From positions 124,001 to 188,000 of the forward strand of contig JAAYSV010000006.1 of assembly GCA_012518215.1 (NCBI GenBank): a stretch of DNA of 64,000 bases. The letters run 5' to 3'. The notes beneath the pieces were generated by a model. It saw only the letters and a list, made by a program, of their open reading frames with translations. It was not told where the DNA came from and made no database searches. The position numbers and the translations under genes were made by a program. Position 1 is the stretch's first letter, and each line of letters starts with the position of its first letter. Shown here piece by piece: positions 16,100 through 22,693 of this stretch. This stretch comes from Bacillota bacterium (GTDB lineage: Bacteria > Bacillota > Dethiobacteria > DTU022 > PWGO01).

Positions 16100-17134
16100 A
16101 TGGAAAAACAAAAAGCTCTGGACATGGCCATCTTGCAGATTGAGAAACAATTCGGCAAAGGGGCGATCATGAAACTGGGGCAGACAGTAAAAAATGGTAT
16201 CGAAACAATCCCTTCAGGTTGCCTGTCGTTGGATATAGCTCTGGGAATTGGCGGGTTTCCCCGGGGAAGGGTGGTGGAGGTTTACGGCCCCGAATCGTCG
16301 GGAAAAACAACCGTGGCACTGCATGCCATTGCCGAGGCCCAGAAAGGCGGGGGCAATGCTGCTTTTGTCGATGCCGAGCATGCTCTTGACCCTTACTATG
16401 CCAAAAAATTGGGTGTAAATGTGGAGGAACTGCTTGTTTCTCAACCTGATACCGGTGAACAGGCTCTCGAGATCGTGGAGATGCTGGTGCGCAGCGCGGC
16501 AGTCGATGTTATCGTGGTCGATTCCGTGGCCGCCCTGGCTCCCCGTGCGGAAATTGAAGGCGATATGGGGGATTCCCATGTTGGCCTGCAGGCACGGCTT
16601 ATGTCCCAGGCCATGCGCAAGCTATCGGCTATCATCAGCAAGTCGAATACCACGGCACTTTTTATCAATCAGATTCGTGAAAAGGTGGGCGTTATGTTTG
16701 GCAACCCTGAAACAACACCGGGTGGCAGGGCCCTGAAATTTTATTCCTCGGTCAGGCTGGAGGTCCGCCGCATAGAAACAATCAAGCAGGGAGACCAGAT
16801 GGTGGGTAATAGAACGCGGGCCAGAGTGGTGAAAAATAAATTGGCTCCTCCTTTCAAAACAGCCGAATTTGACATCATCTACGGGTACGGGATTTCTCGT
16901 GAGGGTTCGCTCATCGACCTGGGAGTGGAACTCGATATAATCAAAAAAAGTGGTGCCTGGTATTCATGGGATGAGGAACGCCTGGGGCAGGGCAAGGAAA
17001 ACGTGCGTGAGTATCTGAAAGACAACCCGGATGTTACCGCTGCCCTCGAGAAACAGATCAGGGAAGCTTACGGTTTGCCTACCAGGAAAGATGATGCTAC
17101 CGGGCCGGACAACGACGGTTCCGGCTTGATTTGA
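16100..17134 (+). CDS. recA: Recombinase RecA
   Basis: This is the central strand-exchange protein and co-protease for LexA cleavage. Walker A is GPESSGKTT at residues 63-71, Walker [11 protein letters not shown] follows, and the loop L2 region ([15 protein letters not shown]) is intact. Length is 344. The ribosome-binding site is GGGAGG, and the start is ATG 16100. TATAAT is present at 16061-16066, but no good -35 stands 16-18 bases upstream. No GAAC-N4-GTTC LexA box is seen in the 72 bases before the gene. The stop overlaps the recX start. Confidence 0.98.
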
Positions 17135-17625
17135 AGATGGCCGGGGCCGGGAAAGGGTCATCGGGTAACAGTGACCGGGATTACAGGGCTGCATGGAATA
17201 AATCCTTGAGGTGGTTGTCATATCGGCAAAGAAGCAAGAAAGAGATGGAGGGTTATCTATCTGGCAAGGGTTTTGATGCCGAAACATGTGCAGGTGTAAT
17301 TGAAAGACTGGAAGGTGTCGGCCTCCTGGATGACAGGGAATTTGCCAGGTCATGGGTGGAATTTTCCAGACGTAAACTGAAGGGTTCTTTAAAAATAAGA
17401 TGGGAATTGAAAAATAAAGGTATCGATGAAAAAATCATCGCCGACTTGTTGAAAAATGAGCTGTCAAGCGAATATGAACGGGCCAGAAAATTGATGGACA
17501 GATACCTGCCAACGGATTATGAGCGAGATGATAGAAATCTTTTGAGAAAAACAATGTCCTTTTTGAAAAGACGGGGATATCCGGGCGAAGTGGTTTTTAA
17601 AATTTCAAGAAAATATTTCGATTGA
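17131..17625 (+). CDS. recX: Regulatory protein RecX
   Basis: RecX proteins bind RecA filaments and restrain them. The 164-residue product has the three repeated helical modules of the family: [42 protein letters not shown] and the C-terminal [12 protein letters not shown]. The start is either TTG 17131, overlapping the recA stop by four bases, or ATG 17137 just after it. Both imply coupling to recA. The N-terminal 20 residues are polar and variable. Confidence 0.9.
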
Positions 17626-17646
17626 TGAAGCATTTTGGATATCTGT

Positions 17647-17675
17647 TTGACATAACCTTTTTCAAGGTATAGAAT
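17647..17675 (+). promoter_or_regulatory. Sigma-A-type promoter for rny
   Basis: TTGACA at 17647-17652 and TAGAAT at 17670-17675 are separated by 17 bases. This is a near-consensus promoter in the 266-base gap between recX and RNase Y, leaving a leader of about 210 bases before the rny start. No terminator hairpin for recX is obvious upstream. Confidence 0.7.
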
Positions 17676-17891
17676 ATTATTGTATCATGTCTTGTATATT
17701 GTAGTGAGAATACAACCTACTACAAAGAGAATCGATGTGCGCCGGGCACTAAAAATATATTTTAAATTGAATCTTGTCTGGTTAAGAAAAAATGTATTTT
17801 TTTCTCTTTTGAATAGTTGTGTTCTTGCACAACTTTTTTTGTTTGTCAGGCATCATTTTTCAGGAATCAAATTGCAGGAGGTGTTAAATTC

Positions 17892-19451
17892 ATGCCTATT
17901 CATTTTATTTTGATCTTGTCCGTAATAGGCTCTTTAATGGCTATCGGTGTTGCCTTTGCTGTCGGGTATTTTTCCCGCAAAAGGGTTGCAGAAAACAAAA
18001 TGATTTCGGCTGAAAACGAAGTGGAAAAAATAATCGAAAATGCAAAATCGGAAGCAAAGGCCATTATAAGGGAGAAGACCCTGGAAGCCAAAGAAGAGGC
18101 GCATCATCTAAGAAACGAAGTGGAAAAGGAAAGTCGAGAGAGGCGTTCCGAATTGAACCGTCTGGAACGTCGTCTGGTTCAGAAGGAGGAGGCTCTGGAC
18201 AAGAAGAACAATGCCATAGAGAAGAAGGAAGAGGACTTGCAACGGAAAAAGGAACATGCACAGAAGATGCAAAAAAAGATTGATGATCTGTACAAGCAAC
18301 AGCTGGCAGAGCTGGAGAGGCTTTCCATGTTGTCACAGAATGAAGCCAAGGAATTGCTGATGGAGAAAGTTGAAAAAGAGATCAAGCATGAAATGGCGAT
18401 CATGATCAAGGATATAGAAGATCGTGCTCATCAGGAAGCAAAAAAGAAATCGAGAGAGATTGTAACCATCGCTATACAGAGATGTGCTGCGGAACATACT
18501 TCCGAGTCAACCGTATCGGTTGTGAATCTTCCCAACGATGATATGAAGGGCAGGATCATTGGAAGGGAAGGAAGGAACATCCGTGCGCTGGAGAATCTTA
18601 CAGGTATAGACTTGATCATTGATGACACCCCGGGAGCGGTGATCATTTCCGGTTTTGACCCGATCCGCCGTGAAATTGCTCGCATTTCATTGGAAAAGTT
18701 GATCAACGACGGTCGTATCCATCCGGCAAGGATAGAAGAGATGGTGGAGAAGTCGCGTCAGGAGATCGAAAATACAATCAAGGAAGAGGGAGAGAGGGCC
18801 ATATTGAAGACTGGAGTACATGGCTTGCATGCGGAACTGGTCCACCACCTGGGTAAACTCAGGTACCGTACCAGTTATGGGCAGAACGTTCTTCAACATT
18901 CGATTGAAGTGTCAAAATTGGCGGGTATAATGGCTGCGGAACTTGGGCTGGACATCAACCTGGCCAAAAGGGCTGGCCTGCTGCATGATATAGGGAAAGC
19001 CATGGATCAGGAATTGGAAAGAACGGGGCCGCATGTGGCTCTGGGTGTTGAGCTGGCCAAAAAATACAAGGAATCCCCGGAGGTGTTGAATGCCATCGAG
19101 GCGCATCACGATGACGTTGACTTCAAGACCATGGAGGCCGTTCTGGTTCAGGCGGCAGATGCAATATCAGCATCCAGGCCGGGAGCCAGACGGGAAAGCC
19201 TGGAAAACTATATCAAGAGACTGGAGAAGCTTGAGGGTATTGCCGATTCGTTCGAGGGTGTAGATAAATGCTTTGCCATCCAGGCCGGAAGGGAAATAAG
19301 GATTATCGTGAAACCGGAAAGAGTCAGTGATAACAATGCTGCCATGATTGCCCGCGATATGGTGAAAAAGATCGAAAATGAAATGGAATATCCCGGGCAG
19401 ATCAAGGTAACGGTCGTCAGAGAAACCAGAGCCATTGAATATGCAAAATAA
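17892..19451 (+). CDS. rny: Ribonuclease Y
   Basis: This membrane-anchored endoribonuclease starts bulk mRNA decay in Bacillota. There is one N-terminal membrane segment (about residues 3-25), a long charged coiled coil (about 35-190), a KH domain with GRIIGREG at 220-227 and an HD domain with LLHDIG near residue 365. ATG 17892 is chosen because AGGAGGT at 17877-17883 lies eight bases upstream; the frame stays open to 17817 but that start has no ribosome-binding site. The product is 519 residues, normal for the family. Order recA-rny-ymdB-spoVS is as in B. subtilis. Confidence 0.96.
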
Positions 19452-19474
19452 AATAAGTAATTTTCAAGCCATCG

Positions 19475-19508
19475 ATATGGAAAGTGTTCACGTGAACACT
19501 TTCCATAT
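19475..19508. repeat. Perfect 34-bp palindrome between rny and ymdB
   Basis: Bases 19475-19491 are followed at once by their exact reverse complement at 19492-19508, centred on CACGTG, with no loop. It lies 23 bases after the rny stop and 57 before ymdB. It could fold in RNA as a long hairpin, but only TTTCG follows, so it is not a standard intrinsic terminator. It could be an RNA-stability or attenuation hairpin, or an operator for a dimeric regulator. Confidence 0.85.
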
Positions 19509-19565
19509 TTCGCTTATCAGATCATGTGAGAAGCAACGGCAACCGATCGGGAAAGGAAGATCATT

Positions 19566-20342
19566 TTGCGTATACTGTTCATCGGTGATATCATGGGGCG
19601 TCCGGGGAGGGAATGCCTGAAGACGGCCATTCCCGGGCTTGACAGCAATTATCGTATGGATGTGATCATTGCCAATGGTGAAAATTCCGCGGGGGGTTGG
19701 GGGATAACCCAAAAAGTTGCTCGCGAAATATTTGATGCGGGAGTTGATGTCATCACCGGGGGCAACCACATATGGGACAACAAGGATGTGTTCAATTTTA
19801 TCGATCAGGAAGAACGTCTACTGAGGCCGTTGAACTACCCTCCGGGCACCCCGGGGAGGGGGTCGGTAGTTTTTGAAAAGGCAGGAAGGAAGATAGGTGT
19901 TATCTGCCTGGCAGGCCAGGTGTTCATGCCCGAAATTGAGTGTCCCTTCAGAAAGTCGGTGGGCGAGATAGAAAGGTTGAAAAGAGAAACGCCGATCATC
20001 ATTGTTGATTTTCATGCCGAGGCAACTTCCGAAAAAAATGCAATGGGATGGTTTTTGAATGACAAGGCAAGTGCTGTTATCGGCACACATACACATGTGC
20101 AGACAGCTGACGAAAGAATCATCGGTCAACAGATGGGCTATATAACAGATGTGGGGATGACCGGGCCGTTCAACTCCGTAATCGGCGTGAATATCGATCA
20201 GGCTATAGAAAAATTCACCACCAAATTGCCAGTCAGATTCAGGTTGGGCGATGCACAACCCGCGCAATTGAATGCTCTTTTTCTTGAGGTAGACAACGAG
20301 GGCATCTGCACATACCTGGAAAGGATCAATATGGTCATTTAA
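19566..20342 (+). CDS. ymdB: YmdB-family metallophosphoesterase
   Basis: This is a dinuclear-metal phosphodiesterase; B. subtilis YmdB cleaves 2',3'-cyclic nucleotides and affects the choice between motility and biofilm. The metal ligands expected for the family are visible: Asp8, Glu39-Asn40 (NGENSAGG), Asn67-His68 (GGNHIWD), His150 (DFHAEATSEK) and His175/His177 (GTHTHVQTAD). Length is 258. The start is TTG 19566 with a GGAAGAT ribosome-binding site. It lies downstream of rny as in B. subtilis, separated by the palindrome. Confidence 0.93.
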   Translation: MRILFIGDIMGRPGRECLKTAIPGLDSNYRMDVIIANGENSAGGWGITQKVAREIFDAGVDVITGGNHIWDNKDVFNFIDQEERLLRPLNYPPGTPGRGSVVFEKAGRKIGVICLAGQVFMPEIECPFRKSVGEIERLKRETPIIIVDFHAEATSEKNAMGWFLNDKASAVIGTHTHVQTADERIIGQQMGYITDVGMTGPFNSVIGVNIDQAIEKFTTKLPVRFRLGDAQPAQLNALFLEVDNEGICTYLERINMVI

Positions 20343-20361
20343 AAATTTACTTTTTTTGATA

Positions 20362-20391
20362 GAAGGAATTTTGGTCATGATGATAGAATAG
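20362..20391 (+). promoter_or_regulatory. Sigma-H-type promoter for spoVS
   Basis: GAAGGAATT at 20362-20370 matches all nine positions of the Bacillus sigma-H -35 consensus (RNAGGAWWW). After 12 bases, ATAGAATAG at 20383-20391 matches eight of nine positions of the -10 (RNNGAATWW). spoVS is a known sigma-H target in B. subtilis, so this fits. Confidence 0.7.
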
Positions 20392-20464
20392 TATAAATAT
20401 TGAAAATATAATATTCTTCAACATTAGCGATTGAAAAACAGGTAGAAGGAGGATGTAGTAACAA

Positions 20465-20725
20465 ATGGACGTACTTAAAGTATCTGCCAAATCCAATCCC
20501 AATTCTGTAGCCGGTGCTCTGGCCGGGGTGCTCAGGGAACGGGGAGGGGCGGAAGTTCAAGCCATAGGTGCCGGTGCTCTAAATCAGGCAGTGAAGGCTG
20601 TTGCTATTGCAAGAGGGTTTGTAGCTCCCAGTGGTGTCGACTTGATATGTATACCTGCTTTTACCGATGTCCAGATAGATGGTGAGGAAAAGACGGCTAT
20701 CAAGTTGATTGTAGAGCCTCGATAA
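20465..20725 (+). CDS. spoVS: Stage V sporulation protein S
   Basis: This is a small Alba-like protein of 86 residues needed for normal spore development and nearly invariant across spore formers. The sequence MDVLKVSAKSNPNSVAGALA with AIGAGALNQAVKAVAIARG is diagnostic. The ribosome-binding site is GAAGGAGG. A sigma-H-type promoter lies about 75 bases upstream, and a strong intrinsic terminator follows 17 bases after the stop, so it is a monocistronic unit. Confidence 0.97.
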   Translation: MDVLKVSAKSNPNSVAGALAGVLRERGGAEVQAIGAGALNQAVKAVAIARGFVAPSGVDLICIPAFTDVQIDGEEKTAIKLIVEPR

Positions 20726-20742
20726 GGGAAATTATATTATTC

Positions 20743-20776
20743 AAAAAAACACCTGGCATTCTTGCCAGGTGTTTTT
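20743..20776 (+). terminator. Intrinsic terminator after spoVS
   Basis: The stem AACACCTGGCA pairs with TGCCAGGTGTT across a short TTCT loop, and a run of T follows on the plus strand. The A-run before the stem could also make it act on the opposite strand. Confidence 0.9.
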
Positions 20777-20827
20777 GTAATTGGTGATCCGTGTATAATT
20801 GATGGGGGAGCATGCAAGGAGGTAACC

Positions 20828-21817
20828 ATGAACAATATCTCCGGAAAAGCTTCAAAGCTTCTAAAGGAAGTAGGAGTCATCGATTGTCATTGTGACACCA
20901 TTTCCAATCTGTCACTTTCCACAAAGAGCAAATACAGATTTGCGGCAGAAAATATGCATGGGCATCTGGATTTGCCGAGGATGTGCAAAGGGGGGGTCAA
21001 AACCCAATTCTTTGCGGCTTGCACGGGAAAGAGAGGCAGGGGGGCAAAAGAAACGTTGCATATGATCTCATGCTATTACCGCAATATAATCTCTGGCAAC
21101 GAACATAAAATCGGACACGTGAATGCTTTTTCCGACATCGCGGCATTGAACAGGAGGGGAAAGATCGCGGCCGTTCTTTCGATAGAAGGTGGGGAAGCTC
21201 TGGATGGGGATATCTCGATGTTGGATATCTATTACATGCTGGGCGTGCGTTCTCTTTCGTTAACATGGAATTATGACAATCTGCTGGCCGGAAGTCATGG
21301 TGACAGAGGGGAAGGCAAATTGACCATGTTGGGGCGCAAGGTGGTCAAACGTATGGAGGCCCTGGGAATGTTGGTCGATTTGGCGCACATATCGCCACGT
21401 GCTTTTTATGATGTTATGGATTTTGCAAGTAAACCTCCAATTGTGTCACATGCTAATGCCAGGTCCATTTGTGACAATTCCCGCAATTTGAGCGATGAAC
21501 AGTTGAAAGTTCTGAGCAAAAAGGGAGGGGTTGTGGGCTTGACTTTTTACCCCCATTTTATTGCTGATAGTGTTGATGAATGCAGTATTGACAAGCTGAT
21601 CGATCATTTCGTTCACATTGCTACAATAGCCGGGGTGGAGGTGCTTGCCCTTGGTTCTGATTTTGATGGGATTGATATTACCATGGATGAACTTCATGAT
21701 TGCACCTGCTATGGATACCTGGTGTCCGGGCTGATAGGAAGAGGGTTTTCCCTTTCCGAGGTGGAACTGATTATATCGGGCAATGTCCTGAGAATACTTG
21801 AAGATAATATAAAATGA
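20828..21817 (+). CDS. Membrane dipeptidase (M19 family)
   Basis: This is a zinc peptidase related to renal dipeptidase, cleaving dipeptides including L,D forms. The motifs are HCDT at residues 21-24, SIEGGEAL with the bridging glutamate, DLAHISP, SHANARS with NSRNLSDEQL, and LGSDFDG. Length is 329. ATG 20828 is chosen because AAGGAGGT lies a few bases upstream; the frame stays open back into the spoVS terminator, which is not coding. A TATAAT at 20794-20799 could be its -10 element. No signal peptide is seen, so the enzyme is probably cytoplasmic. Confidence 0.9.
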   Translation: MNNISGKASKLLKEVGVIDCHCDTISNLSLSTKSKYRFAAENMHGHLDLPRMCKGGVKTQFFAACTGKRGRGAKETLHMISCYYRNIISGNEHKIGHVNAFSDIAALNRRGKIAAVLSIEGGEALDGDISMLDIYYMLGVRSLSLTWNYDNLLAGSHGDRGEGKLTMLGRKVVKRMEALGMLVDLAHISPRAFYDVMDFASKPPIVSHANARSICDNSRNLSDEQLKVLSKKGGVVGLTFYPHFIADSVDECSIDKLIDHFVHIATIAGVEVLALGSDFDGIDITMDELHDCTCYGYLVSGLIGRGFSLSEVELIISGNVLRILEDNIK

Positions 21818-21847
21818 AAATACCGATCAAGAAGGAGCAGTTGAATT

Positions 21848-22693
21848 TTGCTTGCGAAGGAAACTCCTCTGGCTGATATGCACCTGCATAGTTCATTTTC
21901 CGACGGTCTGTATCCCCCTAACAGGTTGGTGGAGATCTGTGCAAGAAATAACAGACTCAAGGCTATTGCCTTGACTGACCATGAATCAACAGAAGGTGTG
22001 GAAGAAGCGCAAAAAGCCGGGCGTCGCCTGGGAATAGAAGTGATACCCGGTGTGGAGATCGGCACTGTTTTTCAAGGCCGGGAAATTCATCTGCTAGGAT
22101 ATTTTGCATCTTCCGATTCCCGGTTGGGGAAAGAGCTTTCCTCGTTGAGAGCCGGACGTTACGAGCGTATGGCCGGAATGCTGGCACTCCTTTCTGGAAA
22201 AGGGGTCAAGGTGCGCATGGAAGATGTCGAGGAAGAAGCCGGGGAGGCTGCTCCGGGCAGGCTTCATCTGGCCAGACTGCTTTATAAAAAAGGTTATGTA
22301 ACGACAATATCGGAAGCATTTGAACGTTTCATCGGTCGAGGCAAGGTGGCATATATTCCCCGTTTGACACTGAAGACCGAGGATGCCATTTCACTTCTGA
22401 ACAGTTGTGGAGCGGTTCCCGTACTGGCACACCCCGGGATAACCAATGAAAACAGTCAATCTCTTTTTCATTTCAAAAAATCGGGTCTGAAGGGCATTGA
22501 AGTTTATCACCCCGAACATACCCCCGGATTGACTCTTTTCTACAGAGAATGGGCTCGAAGGGAAGGGTTGTTGATCACGGGTGGGTCCGATTTCCATGGG
22601 GACGACAAGGAATCCTGTCCCTTTCCGGGCTGTGCAAGTGTGGAATACAGGTGTGTTGAAGAAATTAAAAAAATGTGGGACAGGGCCCCATGA
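21848..22693 (+). CDS. PHP-domain phosphoesterase (RNase AM / nucleoside-bisphosphatase type)
   Basis: This 281-residue PHP-domain protein resembles YciV/TrpH, which acts on 3',5'-nucleotides and RNA 5' ends. Metal ligands are visible in DMHLHSSFSDG (residues 10-20), TDHES (43-47), Glu70 in GVEIG, LAHPG and GSDFHG. The start is TTG 21848 with AAGGAG about ten bases upstream. It follows the dipeptidase by 30 bases in the same direction and is probably co-transcribed with it. The substrate is inferred from the family only. Confidence 0.85.
   Translation: MLAKETPLADMHLHSSFSDGLYPPNRLVEICARNNRLKAIALTDHESTEGVEEAQKAGRRLGIEVIPGVEIGTVFQGREIHLLGYFASSDSRLGKELSSLRAGRYERMAGMLALLSGKGVKVRMEDVEEEAGEAAPGRLHLARLLYKKGYVTTISEAFERFIGRGKVAYIPRLTLKTEDAISLLNSCGAVPVLAHPGITNENSQSLFHFKKSGLKGIEVYHPEHTPGLTLFYREWARREGLLITGGSDFHGDDKESCPFPGCASVEYRCVEEIKKMWDRAP

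Follow-up and report, generated by a model that had tools for sequence, protein, structure and literature searches.

The window, by which we mean the whole 64,000-nucleotide stretch of DNA that was analysed, carries on its forward strand the genes for RNase Y (rny), for a YmdB-like protein (ymdB) and for SpoVS, in that order. RNase Y is the main endonuclease that initiates mRNA decay in Bacillus subtilis. The gap between rny and ymdB contains a perfect palindrome of 34 bp, in which the 17 bases at 19475-19491 are followed, without a loop, by their exact reverse complement at 19492-19508. This is what the initial annotation of the stretch had described. The palindrome begins 23 nt past the stop codon of rny, and 57 nt separate its end from the TTG start of ymdB. 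Upstream of rny lie a promoter-like site and a leader with a terminator of its own, which are listed together with the other features in Table 1.

Table 1. Positions of genes and RNA or DNA features around rny, numbered from the first base of the window
Feature	Position	Strand	Basis or description
Promoter-like site of rny, TTGACA-17-TAGAAT	17647-17675	+	11 of 12 consensus matches
Conserved rny leader with terminator	17701-17841	+	Model R1, 38.5 bits (17703-17841); model R2, 32.4 bits (17701-17841); window in neither training set
Possible antiterminator strand of the leader	17704-17716	+	13 pairs with 17816-17828; 0 of 100 shuffles as good
Leader terminator hairpin and T-run	17815-17841	+	Terminator scan; score 31.8
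rny, RNase Y, 519 aa	17892-19451	+	Pfam RNase_Y_N (3.2e-60), KH_1, HD
Perfect loopless palindrome, 34 bp	19475-19508	.	RNA of the + strand: hairpin of about 16 bp, loop ACGU
Terminator-like core	19484-19512	+	Stem GTGTTC/GAACAC (19484-19499) and interrupted U-tract TTTCCATATTTCG (19500-19512); from the sequence and the GTGCC/GGCAC + U-tract cores of relatives
ymdB, 258 aa, TTG start	19566-20342	+	Pfam YmdB (YmdB-like), 9e-103
spoVS, 86 aa	20465-20725	+	Pfam SpoVS, 1.6e-39

An inverted-repeat scan of the window, allowing up to 80 bases between the copies, gave 13 repeats. The palindrome is the longest perfect one among them, the perfect runners-up having arms of 14 nt. Dinucleotide-preserving shuffles of the window (n = 100) produced loopless arms of no more than 11 nt, compared with the 17 nt of the palindrome. 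The RNA from 19440 to 19580 has a folding energy of -41.4 kcal/mol, whereas its shuffles average -24.9 (z -4.89), and none of 200 folded as low. The scan and the fold thus place a stable stem after the gene, as in intrinsic terminators. Terminator-type loopless hairpins are rare in this genome, though not unique. A sample of 464 kb of the same genome (the window and a further 400 kb) holds four loopless perfect palindromes with arms longer than 9 nt, namely the one after rny, one with arms of 15 nt and two with arms of 11 nt. Perfect hairpins with arms of 10 nt or longer, counted without overlap, number 39 in the same sample; 23 fall between simple ORF calls and 16 inside them. The second longest loopless palindrome (L128:9008-9037; 30 bp, 15-nt arms) lies 33 nt past another predicted gene end. 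It resembles the rny palindrome in having no loop and in following a gene, but differs in sequence and has the shorter arms.

Perfect dyad symmetry would suit a DNA operator bound by a dimeric regulator, a reading that the initial annotation had offered. The rest of the genome argues against it. Nowhere else in the 2.14 Mb of the genome does the 17-mer arm recur exactly, so that the scattered copies for which a search had been proposed are absent and a dispersed repeat is ruled out. At exactly three mismatches the arm has five other genomic sites against three control matches. For the 16-bp core the same mismatch level yields four other sites, each on both strands, with two forward and two reverse matches for the controls. 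The other sites thus all have three mismatches and stay near the control level, with no real excess of near-copies, which speaks against a regulon operator. The length of the loop between the arms also differs among relatives, and the site sits after a gene, away from any visible promoter. We regard a DNA operator for a dimeric regulator at this position as extremely improbable.

Hairpins after rny in related genomes

Regions 3' of rny were gathered from the order to which the genome belongs and from 80 named loci, nearly all of which carry Bacillota or a group within it in their titles (L047 and L085 are the exceptions). Setting aside 13 of the 166 loci, which had no usable rny end, and merging regions with identical starts left 141 regions, 64 from the order, the window included, and 77 named. 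Hairpins were called by a simple rule, which picks the wrong hairpin in some loci (for example L023, L148 and L185; a score-based choice still mispicks L023). By this rule a hairpin follows rny in 59 of the 64 distinct order regions, the window among them, and in 69 of the 77 named regions. A core with AGTG on the 5' side of the stem and CACT on the 3' side is present in 34 of the 59 order hairpins and the longer AAGTG/CACTT in 25, the window being counted in both; 18 of the named regions have the AGTG/CACT core. Elsewhere we found AGTG/CACT in 2 of 155 terminator-like hairpins in the 464-kb sample, one of the two being the palindrome itself, and in 3 of 133 in 395 kb of relatives (20 stretches). 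The window hairpin therefore has both the position after rny and the AAGTG/CACTT core that would be expected of an orthologue.

The loopless form was not seen in the relatives compared. The initial annotation had named the absence of the palindrome from close relatives as grounds for doubt, and for the palindrome as such this doubt applies; a hairpin, on the other hand, does stand in its place. Two other members of the family were found, and both have looped hairpins, AAAAAGTGCC/GGCACTTTTT in G002 and a variant of it in G001. The loop between the arms varies in length among relatives. Pairing in the stem could be counted in the 44 of 64 order regions that can be anchored on GTG/CAC, where 275 of 308 stem cells are paired; the highest count in 1000 shuffles was 263. 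At the fourth pair outward from the core, A-T (28) alternates with G-C (11) in the anchored order hairpins. These counts bear on the idea that the palindrome is a decayed terminator with no present function. Decay would agree with the private loopless form and with a terminator score well below that of the spoVS terminator in the same window (10.6 vs 45.0). It is, however, hard to square with relatives whose pairing exceeds that of all 1000 shuffles, and perfect pairing over 34 bp would hardly outlast neutral drift. We consider decay of this kind very unlikely.

The 3' regions of spoVS in the same genomes served as a control. Hairpins are present in 35 of 40 of them, and the spoVS terminators hold a stem motif of their own, with at least six shared letters in 20% of 5'-arm pairs compared with 41% for rny. 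Since the spoVS terminators also keep their own stem motif, conservation of the rny stem shows descent rather than a special function, and the control weakens the case for the stem as a signal specific to rny.

The tail of the hairpin and gene order

According to the initial annotation the palindrome lacks the T-run of a terminator. The tract is in fact interrupted rather than absent, reading TTCGCTTATC directly 3' of the palindrome, or TTTCCATATTTCG when counted from the CAC of the stem. The longest run of T in this tail is three. What did stand is the negative result of a strict scan, which asked for at least 5 T in 8 bases beginning 0-2 bases past the stem: the palindrome is absent from the seven sites that it found in 17000-21900, its U-tract being too poor. 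By a d'Aubenton-Carafa-type formula the palindrome scores low when read on the + strand, at +10.6, and falls to -8.5 when read on the - strand; the spoVS terminator scores 45.0. The hairpin after spoVS (window 20745-20776) scores 45.0 and 50.0 on its two strands and is unlisted by the simple scan. Because the window hairpin fails the strict U-tract scan, termination there is uncertain, and we have not filed the palindrome as a canonical intrinsic terminator. It would act like a weak one and is the orthologue of strong terminators.

We asked how the tail relates to the position of ymdB. Order regions were called adjacent where ymdB starts within 165 nt with no sigma-H-like motif between (16 regions), and far where such a motif is present, where ymdB lies beyond 400 nt, or where no ymdB was seen within 600 nt (43), the remaining five being in between. 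A C within six bases after CAC occurs in 11 of 12 adjacent regions against 2 of 29 far ones (anchored order regions, with three in-between regions uncounted). Ten of the 11 adjacent regions with this C have a G opposite, which keeps the stem. With the hairpin of each region chosen by score, the median terminator score is 8.4 in adjacent regions (n = 16) and 35.0 in far regions (n = 43; p 5.9e-5), against 10.6 in the window, and the contrast persists when counted by genus (10 vs 19; p 4.5e-4). When placed on a tree built from 41 RNase Y proteins (11 adjacent, 26 far and 4 in between), these data come down to just two independent contrasts, which puts significance out of reach. The tail score follows the expected direction in 1.4 of the 2 on average (sign test not significant); for the C criterion 0.8 of the 2 agree, 0.2 run the opposite way and 1.0 show no difference. 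Named loci of other groups showed no link between U-tract and gene order (28 adjacent vs 45 not; p 0.74). On account of the two contrasts and of the named loci, we hold tuning of the U-tract with gene order to be suggestive and do not claim it as a proven adaptation. The pattern suggests how one terminator could be retuned, by exchanging A-U for G-C pairs in the U-tract while the stem stays.

A sigma-H-like motif follows rny in 37 of the 64 order regions. The + strand of the window contains five matches to this type of motif, and one of them (AGGAAT-16-GAATA, 20364-20390) precedes spoVS. In L028, rny and ymdB are separated by a 185-aa ORF (L028:930-1487) that follows a sigma-H-like motif; Pfam gave no match at E 0.001 for the final 170 residues of the product. 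L020 and L022 resemble this arrangement when judged by eye.

It is also conceivable that the hairpin does not terminate at all. In that case rny and ymdB would be transcribed through, and the stem would either be a processing site (for RNase III, for example) or block 3' exonucleases, so that the two cistrons differ in stability. A strongly folded stem of about 16 pairs (z -4.89), an interrupted U-tract with a negative strict scan, and adjacent relatives that keep the stem by G-C replacement while the U-tract breaks (10 of 11 with C) would all fit such a role. Against this, the score is positive on the + strand only (10.6 vs -8.5), as in a residual terminator, and many relatives outside the adjacent group have kept a long U-tract. 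We judge a purely non-terminating hairpin to be unlikely.

A conserved leader upstream of rny

A hairpin of one kind, with GCTGTG or a close variant in its 5' arm and a T-rich stretch after it, lies 5' of rny in 29 of 30 order loci, the exception being L164. It is found 45-101 nt upstream of the estimated rny start, with terminator scores from -1.1 to 45.8 across loci, and ends a leader of about 150 nt. Mean column identity of this leader is 76% over 25 sequences chosen for likeness. These form alignment A3, 25 leaders picked for likeness out of 41 and counted with a hand-written structure, and the high percentages given here lean that way. In many aligned relatives a TTGACATAA..AAT block occupies the position of the promoter-like site of rny.

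Two models were used to follow the leader through genomes. R1, built from 20 training rows, matches 43 of 71 order genomes, including the genome of the window, and 23 of the 43 were outside training. Every full-length R1 match is upstream of rny on the same contig and strand (coordinates compared by eye), and two genomes have an extra antisense terminator fragment. R2, which includes structure and has 25 training rows, matches 39 of 97 class genomes, 14 of them outside training, and none of the 26 class genomes outside the order. Held-out rows match R2; for the window the match scores 32.4 bits, with E 2.4e-4 over the 42 sources selected for that search. In a stricter whole-genome scan R2 misses the genome of the window, both models miss the two other family members in whole-genome scans, and another family (f5) gave three weak matches with R1 and none with R2, which together make the window leader a divergent member. 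A search of Rfam with window 17600-20900 at E up to 1 returned two weak matches that fall short of the gathering score and lie away from both the palindrome and the leader, and the leaders of ten relatives had no Rfam match.

Within the leader, 98% of the cells of helix P2 are paired, and three of its pairs show changes on both sides; helix P1 is 94% paired and has no pair of that type. Over the whole A3 structure the number of pairs changed on both sides shows no excess (4 vs 4.4 in shuffles). Counted by cell, changes on both sides amount to 15 against 5.7, and these cells, the percentage paired and the covariation score each lie above 500 of 500 shuffles. RNAalifold on alignment A1 recovered the terminator helix alone, which we read as misalignment of the inner helices. 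The strand before P1 can pair with the 5' arm and apex of the terminator in 98.4% of 250 cells of the aligned set, compared with 13-51% when slid, and shows no covariation there. In the window this gives 13 contiguous pairs of a possible antiterminator and in G002 13 other pairs, in each case with 0 of 100 shuffles as good; as the two sets differ, this looks like compensation between lineages. A test of the longest complementarity found no excess of antiterminator pairing (7.0 vs 6.7). When the pairing was scored, 13 of 30 leaders stood at no more than 5 of 100 shuffles, with one more leader, that of L164, having no recognised terminator.

We give even weight to the proposal that this is a new rny-specific cis-regulatory RNA that governs RNase Y expression in the order. 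The leader would comprise a conserved domain closed by AAGAGAAAG/CTTTCTCTT and, besides it, a strand that either pairs with the 5' arm and apex of the terminator (on) or leaves the terminator free (off), in response to RNase Y or to a signal of RNA turnover. The palindrome 3' of the gene would then be a second, static control point that sets the flow to ymdB. RNase Y of B. subtilis autoregulates by cleaving the rny transcript, within the 5' UTR and in the opening ~100 nt of the ORF (PMC10303841). With self-control acting there, the suggestion that the palindrome shields rny mRNA from RNase Y finds no support. A switch-like leader specific to rny, if true, would add a second, transcriptional route to RNase Y autoregulation. 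We found no mention of such an rny RNA leader in the accessible portions of the literature on RNase Y and rny and of two surveys of candidate RNAs (PMC2864571, PMC6429828), a search whose scope lay outside most subscription journals and bioRxiv. The leader looks more novel than the palindrome; it matters more, and is the part that deserves the attention of specialists.

A putative leaky terminator and its known counterparts

On the + strand of the gap between rny and ymdB (19452-19565), two simple motif scans found no sigma-70-like site at the scan threshold and no sigma-H-like motif, so that ymdB is probably transcribed by read-through from rny, although a promoter-like site within the rny gene (18904-18931) may be an alternative source. 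The initial annotation had proposed an RNA hairpin that sets the ratio of rny to ymdB expression, and this idea survives in part. The hairpin and its position are evident from the DNA, as are the broken U-tract, the hairpins of relatives with compensated changes in their stems, and a gap with no promoter-like motif on the + strand. We think it likely that the palindrome is a weakened, read-through orthologue of the intrinsic-terminator hairpin found after rny in most genomes of the order.

RNA polymerase leaving rny would make the hairpin. Because the stem core is poorer in GC pairs than those of relatives and the U-tract is broken by CC, only part of the polymerases would be expected to stop, giving a monocistronic rny mRNA with the hairpin at its 3' end. 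The remaining polymerases would continue into ymdB, for which no separate promoter is visible, and the hairpin would in this way set the ratio of rny to rny-ymdB transcripts. That transcripts stop here in part, and that this fraction is important, are inferences. The loss of the loop may represent the neutral end state of arm correction.

A leaky terminator is in itself ordinary. In B. subtilis a potential terminator is described downstream of rny, but ymdB fell when transcription of rny was shut off (PMC3297567), and from this polar effect read-through past the rny terminator was inferred for that species. A polar effect on ymdB is also described in PMC3542257, and an rny mutation without a polar effect on ymdB in one later study (PMC8266666).

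A close counterpart to the window hairpin comes from locus L248, the 807-kb record NZ_CP083716.1, which is labelled a Bacillus velezensis plasmid. The record carries recA, rny, a YmdB-type phosphoesterase gene and spoVS, and given this content it may be a piece of chromosome under a plasmid label. Its rny-ymdB terminator occupies the same place, directly before ymdB, with AAAGTG/CACTTT at the base of the stem. The B. velezensis hairpin has a 5-nt loop and a run of seven T, in contrast to the window hairpin with no loop and a broken U-tract. Compared with intrinsic (Rho-independent) terminators in general, the window hairpin is alike in lying a few tens of bases past a stop codon and in having a U-containing tail, and differs in the weakness of that tail, in its symmetric AT-rich outer arms and in the absence of a loop.
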